Both the position numbers and the translations under genes were made by a program. DNA of 64,000 nucleotides from Subsaximicrobium wynnwilliamsii (GTDB lineage: Bacteria > Bacteroidota > Bacteroidia > Flavobacteriales > Flavobacteriaceae): NCBI RefSeq assembly GCF_007997225.1, contig NZ_VORM01000014.1, positions 62,001 to 126,000 of the forward strand, given 5' to 3'. Under the pieces are notes generated by a model. It worked only from the letters and a program-made list of their open reading frames with translations, was not told where the DNA came from and made no database searches. Of the stretch, positions 5,280 to 47,884 are shown in pieces. Within the stretch, counting starts at the first letter, position 1; every line of letters begins with the position of its first letter.

Positions 5280-5649
5280 AGTGGTCCCACCTGGGCTCGA
5301 ACCAGGGACCACCTGTCCCGATAGCTATCGGGAGAGTCAGGTGGATAAGGTTGTTATTTTTCTACCATCTCTTGGTATTTCTTAAGGTTTAGGATATAAG
5401 TCCCTGTATTCACGAACTTTATCTTTAGTGGTAATAAAAAAACCCTTCAGATGAAGGGTTTTCTAGTGGTCCCACCTGGGCTCGAACCAGGGACCACCTG
5501 TCCCGATAGCTATCGGGAGAGTCAGGTGGATAAGGTTGTTATTTTTCTACCATCTCTTGGTATTTCTTAAGGTTTAGGATATAAGTCTTGGCCTTCACGG
5601 ACTTTATCTTTAGTGGTAATAAAAAAACCCTTCGGATGAAGGGTTTTCT
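5280..5649 (-). repeat. Tandem repeat A: two 185-bp units, each with a tRNA 3'-half copy carrying palindrome P1
   Basis: Unit A1 is 5280-5464 and A2 is 5465-5649. A third start at 5650 is the intact tRNA, so the period is exactly 185 both times. Each unit holds the 3' part of the neighbouring CAU tRNA on the minus strand (discriminator, acceptor 3' strand, T arm, variable loop, anticodon stem). Palindrome P1 (5316-5333 and 5501-5518) replaces five bases of the anticodon loop region. The tRNA homology stops at the 5' end of the anticodon stem, where a unique 'gataaggttgtt' spacer begins. Each unit ends in an AACCCTTC/GAAGGGTT hairpin. The units differ at only a few positions. They lack the D arm, so they cannot encode tRNA. 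Confidence 0.9.
5625..5648 (-). terminator. Rho-independent terminator of the CAU tRNA
   Basis: On the minus strand the tRNA 3' end is followed within a few bases by AAAACCCTTC-ATCC-GAAGGGTTTT and a T run. The same hairpin is duplicated near 5439-5462 in unit A1. Confidence 0.75.
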
Positions 5650-5651
5650 AG

Positions 5652-5725
5652 TGGTCCCACCTGGGCTCGAACCAGGGACCACCTGATTATGAGTCAGGTG
5701 CTCTAACCAGCTGAGCTATAGGACC
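5652..5725 (-). tRNA. tRNA with CAU anticodon (Met elongator or lysidine-modified Ile2)
   Basis: The 74-base cloverleaf folds fully on the minus strand. The acceptor stem GGTCCTA pairs with TGGGACC (one G-T pair), the D arm is GCTC/GAGC, the anticodon stem CCTGA/TCAGG encloses loop CTCATAA (anticodon CAT), and the T arm CCTGG/CCAGG encloses TTCGAGC. CCA is not encoded. Pairs C4-G69 and C5-G68 resemble isoleucine tRNAs that TilS converts with lysidine, but sequence alone does not separate them from elongator Met. It is the only complete copy among five tRNA-like segments between 5280 and 5955. Confidence 0.93.
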
Positions 5726-5955
5726 GTTGGTTATTTTTTATTTCAATATGTTCACTTATCCTGTACCACCTGTCCCGATAGCTATCGGGAGAGTCAGGTG
5801 CTCTAACCTCCCGATAACTATCGTGGAGAGCTATAGGACCGTTGGTTATTTTTTATTTCAATATGTTCACTTATCCTGTACCACCTGTCCCGATAGCTAT
5901 CGGGAGAGTCAGGTGCTCTAACCTCCCGATAACTATCGTGGAGAGCTAAAGGACC
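5726..5955 (-). repeat. Tandem repeat B: two 115-bp units with tRNA 5'-half copies carrying two palindromes each
   Basis: Unit B1 is 5726-5840 and B2 is 5841-5955. The intact tRNA 5' end at 5725 starts the series, so the period is exactly 115. Each unit contains a spacer (possibly the tRNA promoter region, read from the right) and the 5' part of the tRNA on the minus strand: acceptor 5' strand, D arm, anticodon arm. Palindrome P1 (5773-5790, 5888-5905) replaces the anticodon-loop bases. A related 19-base imperfect palindrome (5809-5827, 5924-5942) replaces four D-loop bases. The T arm is missing, so the copies are not functional tRNAs. Confidence 0.9.
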
Positions 5956-46726: not shown

Positions 46727-46791
46727 CAAAAATTTTTGTTTCCGCCATCAGTTGCGGCTGAAGCAAAAATTTTAGAATTAGTCTAAAATTT
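46727..46791. other. Two overlapping, mutually exclusive hairpins
   Basis: CAAAAATTTTTGTTTCCGCC (46727-46746) pairs with 46756-46775 (17 of 20 positions plus a wobble). AAAATTTTAGA (46766-46776) can instead pair with TCTAAAATTT (46782-46791). They share the middle arm, so only one can form in a transcript. Confidence 0.5.
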
Positions 46792-46812
46792 GAGAATATG
46801 ACCACCCTTTAG

Positions 46813-46830
46813 TCCCGATAGCTATCGGGA
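46813..46830. repeat. Palindromic element P1 (TCCCGATAGCTATCGGGA)
   Basis: Identical to the copies within the tRNA-like repeats at 5316, 5501, 5773 and 5888. Its flanks are CCCTTTAG and GGGG, which without P1 would form a small CCC/GGG hairpin. Confidence 0.85.
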
Positions 46831-47003
46831 GGGGCAAACACATATTCTGCCGTGGGATATTAAAATTAACTTTTAGTACTGTTTGCGGATATACGTTTTT
46901 TTTTCATTGTTGTCCGATTAAACTTTTATAAACAATGATTTTGTTAACAGCAGCAGGGTTTTAAGTCTCTGTTGGGCATTAATGTTTTTTTTAATTAAAA
47001 ATC

Positions 47004-47038
47004 GTCAATCGTCAATCGTCAATCGTCAATCGTCAATC
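47004..47038. repeat. Five tandem GTCAATC heptamers overlapping the EcsC stop codon
   Basis: Units at 47004, 47011, 47018, 47025 and 47032, followed by the degenerate CTCAATT inside the gene. The stop codon (47033-47035) is part of the last unit. Confidence 0.92.
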
Positions 47039-47884
47039 CTCAATTTCTATTTTCTTCTCAAAAACTTCCTGCACCAAGGGCACTCCATATTTGCGTTCTA
47101 AACGTCTTACCGTAAAGTGGGCACTAGCCATTTTTTGGAAATGATTTACGAAGATAAAATTTAGTGAACCACCGCTTACTGCTCCCAAAACGGGAATGGC
47201 CTGGGCCAAGAATTTTTCGCTCATGAATAAGCTCAATCGCGAGGCGATTTTGGCGACAATGTTGCTCAAGGTGCTTGAGCCCATGACGCCAACCGATTTC
47301 ACTACGGTTTCCAAACCCATCTTAATACCCGATGCCGAAATGGTCTTTAAACCAGCATCTAAAGTAATGCGTGTGCTGTAATAACTCGTTTCGACACCAT
47401 CATCGTCTTTTGACTCGCCACCCAATGCAAATACTTGGAGGCAGGCCAACTGTCCTTCCAAGGAATAAATATCTTCGCCTTCACTACGGGCAATATCCAT
47501 AATGGTTCGCATCAGGAATTTAGTGGTTACACCTAGTTCAGACACAAAAATAGCAGTGCCAATACCCGTAGTTGAACCGAAAAATCCGCTTAGCGCACCA
47601 CTTCCTGTTACCACTGCCCTATAAGTGGCATTGGAGGGTTTTTTAAAAGCTTTGTCTTTTTGTATGGTAAGCAAATTGGCCTTGATGATTTTCATTAACA
47701 CATTTTGTGTGGCAGTTTGCAACTTATTCAATGCTTTCTCGGGAATGTATTTTATTTTCGATTCCACAACATTGCCCAAGCTATTGACACCTTTAATCGC
47801 CCAACCTAAATTGTGCATGGTATGTTTGGCCTTTTCTAAAGCCTCTAGATCTTCGGGATTGATACGTTGGATTTGGAGTGTCAA
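47033..47884 (-). CDS. EcsC-family protein
   Basis: 283 residues. The central glycine/alanine-rich, hydrophobic segments (SGALSGFFGSTTGIGTAIFV, VLGAVSGGSLNFIFVNHFQ) and the N-terminal KAKHTMHNLGWAIKGVNSLG fit the EcsC family, first named from the Bacillus ecs operon and of unknown biochemical role. It is probably membrane-associated. Its last codons (KIEIED) and stop codon merge into a tandem GTCAATC repeat. The gene stands alone. Confidence 0.82.
   Translation of the reverse strand: MTLQIQRINPEDLEALEKAKHTMHNLGWAIKGVNSLGNVVESKIKYIPEKALNKLQTATQNVLMKIIKANLLTIQKDKAFKKPSNATYRAVVTGSGALSGFFGSTTGIGTAIFVSELGVTTKFLMRTIMDIARSEGEDIYSLEGQLACLQVFALGGESKDDDGVETSYYSTRITLDAGLKTISASGIKMGLETVVKSVGVMGSSTLSNIVAKIASRLSLFMSEKFLAQAIPVLGAVSGGSLNFIFVNHFQKMASAHFTVRRLERKYGVPLVQEVFEKKIEIED

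Follow-up and report, generated by a model that had tools for sequence, protein, structure and literature searches.

A short hairpin element of Bacteroidia associated with the replacement of a few target bases

Introduction

Tiny dispersed hairpins are known from cyanobacteria, and palindromic elements of about 100–150 bp, often located inside proteins, are known from Rickettsia. The SDRs of Nostoc and its relatives, which Elhai et al. reportedly described in 2008, are said to be tiny hairpin-forming repeats of 21–27 nt without a gene of their own, to sit inside short tandem repeats and other small repeats, and to be nested in themselves. SDRs are cited as reference 43 in PMC3116915, and the Rickettsia palindromic elements are mentioned in PMC3733652. 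Organelle genomes carry the RHE of sponges, the palindromes of Volvox and the GC clusters of yeast; as presented in PMC2800124, PMC2670323 and PMC4478555, these are short hairpins that lie mainly between genes and whose mechanism is unsettled. REP and REPIN elements with RAYT are short, multicopy, extragenic hairpins that are thought to be moved in trans (PMC3116915, PMC6006769 and PMC3733652).

Here we describe P1, a perfect 18-nt palindrome (TCCCGATAGCTATCGGGA) present in a 64,000-nt stretch of the Subsaximicrobium wynnwilliamsii genome (the whole stretch of DNA analyzed, hereafter ‘the window’). By analogy, its nearest kin in behavior would be the Nostoc SDRs and the organelle hairpin elements. 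Like the SDRs as described above, P1 is a tiny hairpin found within tandem repeats, within other small repeats and within itself; it differs in length (18 nt, versus a reported 21–27 nt) and in host (Bacteroidia rather than cyanobacteria), and replacement of target bases is documented for P1, the comparison with SDRs being one of features rather than of sequence. The Rickettsia elements resemble it as palindromic repeats spread in one bacterial lineage, but are unlike P1 in size and habitat; P1 spans 18 bp and is mostly intergenic. With the organelle elements P1 shares its shortness, its position mainly between genes and an unsettled mechanism; it further shares conserved stems and variable loops with the sponge elements, and insertion of elements into one another with the Volvox palindromes. 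It differs from all of these in lying on bacterial chromosomes with the same 18 letters class-wide. For yeast GC clusters, short flanking direct repeats like target duplications are reported, whereas P1 sites lose bases. Finally, P1 differs from REP and REPIN elements in having no GTAG or CGTC tag and in not lying beside the RAYT genes examined.

Results

P1 replaces bases in partial copies of a tRNA-Met gene

The window contains one intact tRNA-Met gene (anticodon CAT; minus strand, positions 5651–5725), identified by ARAGORN and from the sequence. This gene is free of P1 and served as the reference for four partial copies, also on the minus strand, of which two lie 3′ and two lie 5′ of it, all within positions 5281–5955. 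The 3′ partial copies (5281–5344 and, 185 bp away, 5466–5529) comprise the T arm and the anticodon arm, and each carries P1 in place of anticodon-loop bases (5316–5333, found by pattern search and folding, and 5501–5518, found by pattern search). The 5′ partial copies (5765–5840 and, 115 bp away, 5880–5955) comprise the D arm and the anticodon arm; each has P1 in the anticodon loop (5773–5790 and 5888–5905, by pattern search) and a 19-nt variant of the P1 family in place of D-loop bases (5809–5827, recognized by sequence and fold, with a second copy at 5924–5942). The variant has the loop AACT and one arm longer by one base. All of the P1 and variant positions given in the original prediction were thus located. 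Its description of the pieces as half-copies held only in that four partial copies exist: they are not clean halves, since the anticodon arm is present in the 5′ and 3′ pieces alike.

Comparison with the intact gene bore out the claim that bases of both loops had been replaced. At the anticodon site (plus-strand letters), CCACCTG-ATTAT-GAGTCAGG in the intact gene becomes CCACCTG-P1-GAGTCAGG in the partial copies; at the D-loop site, CTCTAACC-AGCT-GAGCTATAG becomes CTCTAACC-variant-GAGCTATAG in both 5′ partial copies. The further claim that loss was confined to the loop, with the stems unchanged, needs amendment: in the DNA fold, the last base lost at the anticodon site is part of the anticodon stem. 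Overall, the window contains seven matches to P1 with up to three mismatches, where 0.02 would be expected by chance; five are perfect, including one at 46813–46830 (found by pattern search), and the variants at 5809 and 5924 have three mismatches.

Because the partial copies share flanks and are spaced at 115 and 185 bp, we attribute them to some two insertions that were later duplicated. The probable history in the window is one entry of P1 at the anticodon loop and one entry of the variant at the D-loop, after which the tRNA-Met copies multiplied. A further copy is present elsewhere in the source genome (L003:2688).

The neighboring gene likewise stands next to a single tRNA-Met at 20 loci of 19 congeners, where the fetched stretches contain no P1. 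Two congeners (G002 and G015) have P1-free 3′ partial copies of tRNA-Met elsewhere, with the anticodon-loop letters intact; partial copies as such therefore do not need P1, and tRNA truncation and P1 entry need not be a single event. These two copies (L318 and L319) break off within the anticodon arm and are separated from the intact gene by about 19 and 23 kb. An integrative element that exploits a tRNA gene can leave a 3′ partial copy of it behind, and L318 and L319 may be attachment-site remnants. Two partial tRNA-Met matches in G013 were uninformative, both lying at contig ends. The three window proteins adjoining the tRNA (a TonB-dependent receptor, an alcohol dehydrogenase and one without a Pfam family) gave no clue to P1.

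P1 belongs to a hairpin family

P1 folds into a 7-bp stem (TCCCGAT/ATCGGGA in the family) with the 4-nt loop AGCT, and the tetraloop is freer than the stem. In 13 P1-positive genomes with 204 exact copies, freeing the four loop positions added 115 sites, while freeing four positions of one arm added only 23 or 37; this is the conserved stem and variable loop of DHE/RHE elements. The source genome behaved in the same way (30 additional sites versus 1 and 4), but in three genomes taken singly (G338, G228 and G131) the arms were as variable as the loop or more so, the loop effect being absent or reversed. Matches to the 14-mer core outnumber those to the 18-mer by 27% (259 versus 204 in the 13 genomes, with 1 to 11 more per genome), indicating that the ends of P1 are not always identical. 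We read P1 as the commonest member of its family of hairpin elements. Other perfect palindromes recur in loci of the source genome (CTGCCTGCCGGCAGGCAG in four loci, AAGGGAGCATGCTCCCTT five times in one locus) and may represent further families.

Flank statistics were taken from exact 18-mers, in which the outer T and A are fixed by the search. Of 209 sites, 28 have complementary bases at −1 and +1, versus 65.6 expected; A occupies +1 in 22 of 418 flanks, and purines (A or G) predominate at +3 on either side, which gives a weak YNR motif. The idea that P1 is a piece of a longer conserved element was rejected, as flanks differ between sites and complementarity ends at the ninth pair. At the level of the sequences compared, the palindrome stops sharply at 18 nt.

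P1 is scattered through Bacteroidia, mainly between genes

The source genome carries 48 exact copies of P1 and 136 sites within three mismatches, with none for a reversed-pattern control. Among 98 sampled genomes of Bacteroidia, the source genome included, 28 carry P1, with 1 to 48 exact copies each; it is absent from 297 genomes of the other classes of the phylum, and the reversed pattern is absent from all 395. In a separate draw of congeners, 4 of 22 carry P1 at 1–3 copies each, so that 48 copies are unusual for the genus. Among the matches listed from a named collection, at least 118 stretches contain P1, 117 labeled as Bacteroidota or one of its subgroups and one as ‘uncultured bacterium’; we take the name of the class, Bacteroidia, from these labels. 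Another 37 stretches that contain P1 are from viral contigs. We set aside a sequencing artefact as the source, since many assemblies within one class contain P1 without being related to each other, and none of the 395 genomes contains the reversed pattern. A search by sequence and topic in one open library, covering the main texts rather than supplements, found no description of P1.

Pooling of these sources gave 253 distinct sites (44 from the source genome, 123 from named stretches and 86 from the sampled ‘G’ genomes). Only 17 of them lie inside crude ORFs, whereas ORFs cover 72.6% of bases. We infer that P1 is mobile because its presence is scattered.

P1 replaces a few bases at sites with a P1-free homologue

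Among the fetched DNA, a P1-free homologue was available for 59 of the 253 sites, and replacement can be read at those sites rather than at the other 194. Of the 59, 21 are hexamer arrays and were dropped; their phase points to loss of 4 nt, though plain insertion with a 2-nt duplication would fit it too. The remaining homologue sites, five further sites and the two window events make up a counted set of 45. At 41 of these, 3–6 nt have been replaced (3 nt at 13 sites, 4 nt at 17, 5 nt at 8 and 6 nt at 3) and at the other four 7, 9, 10 and 11 nt, once each; losses of 0–2 nt, although allowed by the search, were found at none. The 45 are not independent events, because they include related copies (L080 twice, L157/L158, L185/L186 and the Flavo-1 loci) and because the homologues are paralogues or look-alikes rather than proven ancestors. 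Four repetitive or low-complexity sites were left uncounted: L038 (a weak 1-nt match), L058 (6 nt), L071 (3 nt) and L121 (4 nt).

Judged against P1-free homologues, P1 swaps out a short run of target bases, nearly always 3–6 nt. The prediction that a few bases are lost on entry is upheld by the 41 of 45 sites, and it survived the opposing expectation of simple insertion at empty sites, as none of the 45 showed it. Nor is there the fixed target-site duplication of MITE/TIR elements, given the loss of 3–6 nt at those 41 sites. Abutting direct repeats of at least 4 nt flank 11 of 123 sites, versus 0.9 by permutation, an excess that would suit a target-duplicating mechanism at some sites.

P1 lies in loops, structured RNAs and repeats

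Besides the window, P1 occupies tRNA D-loops in five other genomes (L049, L066, L112, L124 and L138) and a tRNA variable loop in one (L148). Altogether there are eight tRNA-like entries in seven genomes, two of them in the window, and all are in loops; one stem base was lost in the anticodon case and, by our reading, one in L148. An intact paralogue lies about 20 to 500 nt from each tRNA-like case, a closeness that is partly by construction, since the cases were located via those paralogues. Two RNase P RNAs with full-length Rfam model matches contain P1 (L059 and L155; 246 and 252 bits): in L155, P1 supplies a distal hairpin, and the copy in L059 is flanked by letters able to pair, within the variable 3′ part. 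P1 is also contained in matches to the Flavo-1 RNA at five loci (L135, L181, L187, L221 and L222), at or near the terminal loop in four alignments, and in three hairpins (L100, L120 and L174) that we read as terminator-like from their stem and T-run.

The SDR-like habit of sitting within other repeats is seen in hexamer arrays, dispersed repeats, direct repeats and, at L129, a P1-like hairpin within which P1 is nested. Long hexamer arrays of the GAAGAY/TTCAAG type in the source genome often hold several copies of P1 at fixed phase (L015, L022, L023, L025 and others). The P1 at 46813 lies within a dispersed repeat (CTTTAG-P1-GGGG...) present at six places in the genome (window positions 46770–46900, L003:6027, L005:2682, L006:2503, L010:2414 and L017:2316), all found through P1; a tandem heptamer, (aatcgtc)n, lies nearby at about 47000–47040 of the window. 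A gapped-pattern search for P1-free copies of this repeat returned four copies in the source genome, all with P1, and none in the 19 congeners. Another repeat, with P1 at the identical place, is common to the source genome (L007, L013 and L016) and Gelidibacter salicanalis (L067).

Enrichment was measured at the 209 sites outside the source genome. Strongly pairing flanks occur at 20 of them (9.6%), versus 66 of 1875 local intergenic controls (3.5%; 2.7-fold, p = 3e-4), and direct repeats of at least 6 nt at 31 (14.8%), versus 99 of 1875 (5.3%; 2.8-fold, p = 2e-6); these p-values are optimistic, because the sites are partly related copies. One or the other threshold is reached at 49 sites and neither at 160 (77%). 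The loop preference of P1 is real, and most sites have no hairpin or direct repeat at the thresholds used. In functional RNAs, some of the loop bias can be put down to selective removal of insertions that fall in stems, an explanation that suits broken tRNA copies less well. Loop-targeted exchange as originally proposed is thus borne out in that loops recur and hairpins are enriched 2.7-fold, but not as a strict rule: direct repeats are enriched equally. Had targeting been strict, most copies should not lie outside hairpin loops, and with strongly pairing flanks at 20 of the 209 sites the strict form fails.

Template switching as a possible source of P1 copies

A rival account has P1 written into stalled, slipped or hairpin-forming sites, either through template switching while DNA is repaired or replicated or through reverse transcription of a small hairpin RNA, and sometimes accompanied by a short tandem duplication. 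The joint enrichment of hairpins and direct repeats fits such a process, and at L049, L066, L124, L138 and in the window P1 sits in a partial duplicate of a tRNA, with an intact tRNA nearby; that proximity, however, is partly by construction, the cases having been found through the intact gene. Direct copies of a 16-nt flank lie within 120 nt of 19 of 208 sites, versus 39 of 930 controls (p = 0.008), but local duplication shows no significant excess when the range is widened to 400 or 1500 nt (p = 0.27 for either), nor for both arms together (p = 0.12). The P1-free partial tRNA-Met copies of G002 and G015 lower the odds further by showing that truncation and P1 entry are separable, and no source molecule for P1 was found. 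On this evidence we consider copying by template switch or reverse transcription rather unlikely. Inverted local copies of the flanks were also considered, and showed no excess at 120, 400 or 1500 nt.

Y1 transposases and REP elements

P1 could also be a REP element in a REPtron-like arrangement, mobilized by a Y1 (HUH) transposase of the REP-associated kind, a candidate that the original prediction had named while observing that the window holds no such gene. That observation is correct: the source genome has six matches to the Y1 domain (Y1_Tnp), none of them on the window's contig. P1 has the REP trait of a short, extragenic, multicopy hairpin, and one of the six Y1 loci bears a P1-like hairpin with three mismatches (L029:2300). 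Y1_Tnp is present in 59 of 80 genomes of the class (the survey covered 80 of the 98; the other 18 are P1-negative), and P1 copy number correlates with the number of Y1 matches (Spearman 0.49, p = 3e-6, kinship ignored). Subclass 2.6, mostly from Bacteroidetes, has atypical flanking hairpins according to PMC6006769, which we count in favor of the REP reading.

Against it, P1 copy number is also weakly correlated with genome size (0.30), P1 presence and Y1 presence are not significantly associated (p = 0.11), and Y1 matches are lacking in four genomes that carry P1. No P1-like hairpin with up to four mismatches lies at any of 20 RAYT loci fetched at 3.3–3.4 kb (18 from P1-positive and 2 from P1-negative genomes, which cover part of the Y1 matches), and on this ground the REPtron arrangement was rejected. 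Tags abut P1 at very few of the 209 sites (GTAG at 1, GTGG at 1 and CGTC at 2); within 6 nt the counts are 4, 3 and 3, versus 4, 2 and 1 for a control 34–40 nt away. Because P1 is missing from the RAYT loci fetched and the REP tags from P1, we do not file P1 as a REP element; the candidate is weakened, and we judge it quite improbable. The Y1/RAYT survey revealed no mobilizing gene linked to P1. Seven of the RAYT loci (L275, L279, L280, L281, L283, L284 and L286) have simple hairpins of their own, such as CCCGTGGTTTCAACCACGGG, CCTCCAGATAAATCTGGAGG and CCCTAGGTTGCACCTAGGG.

That P1 is immobile, a regulatory or RNA-stability motif that selection maintains where it has a function, would suit its intergenic bias (17 of the 253 sites in ORFs) and its presence in terminator-like hairpins such as L100, L120 and L174, but is very improbable given P1 in broken tRNA copies, simple hexamer arrays and a P1-like hairpin, and its absence from the tRNA-Met locus of congeners.

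Discussion

The balance of this evidence tips slightly toward P1 being a tiny, non-autonomous hairpin element, spread across Bacteroidia genomes mainly between genes, that enters by replacing 3–6 bases. A mobile P1 of this kind would travel as a single strand in folded form, and an activity that cuts and joins in trans would exchange the hairpin for the unpaired bases of hairpin loops or of slipped repeats. More specifically, and tentatively enough that we would expect to be wrong more often than right, Bacteroidia may possess an undescribed form of loop exchange, in which a nuclease and a joining enzyme supplied in trans cut both sides of a loop in single-stranded DNA and swap in the folded 18-nt hairpin.

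How tiny dispersed hairpins move, in cyanobacteria as in organelles, is an unsettled question on which P1 bears. It offers a clean case, with one identical 18-mer in many genomes and P1-free homologues ready-made for comparison, and it sets out a footprint that any proposed enzyme would have to meet: 3–6 bases lost, sharp borders and YNR flanks. A partial tRNA gene with an unusual loop is not necessarily an error of assembly, and in RNase P RNA the loops of an essential RNA have been enlarged with the stems undamaged. If loop exchange proves true, P1 would be among the smallest mobile elements, one that moves by substitution instead of insertion.
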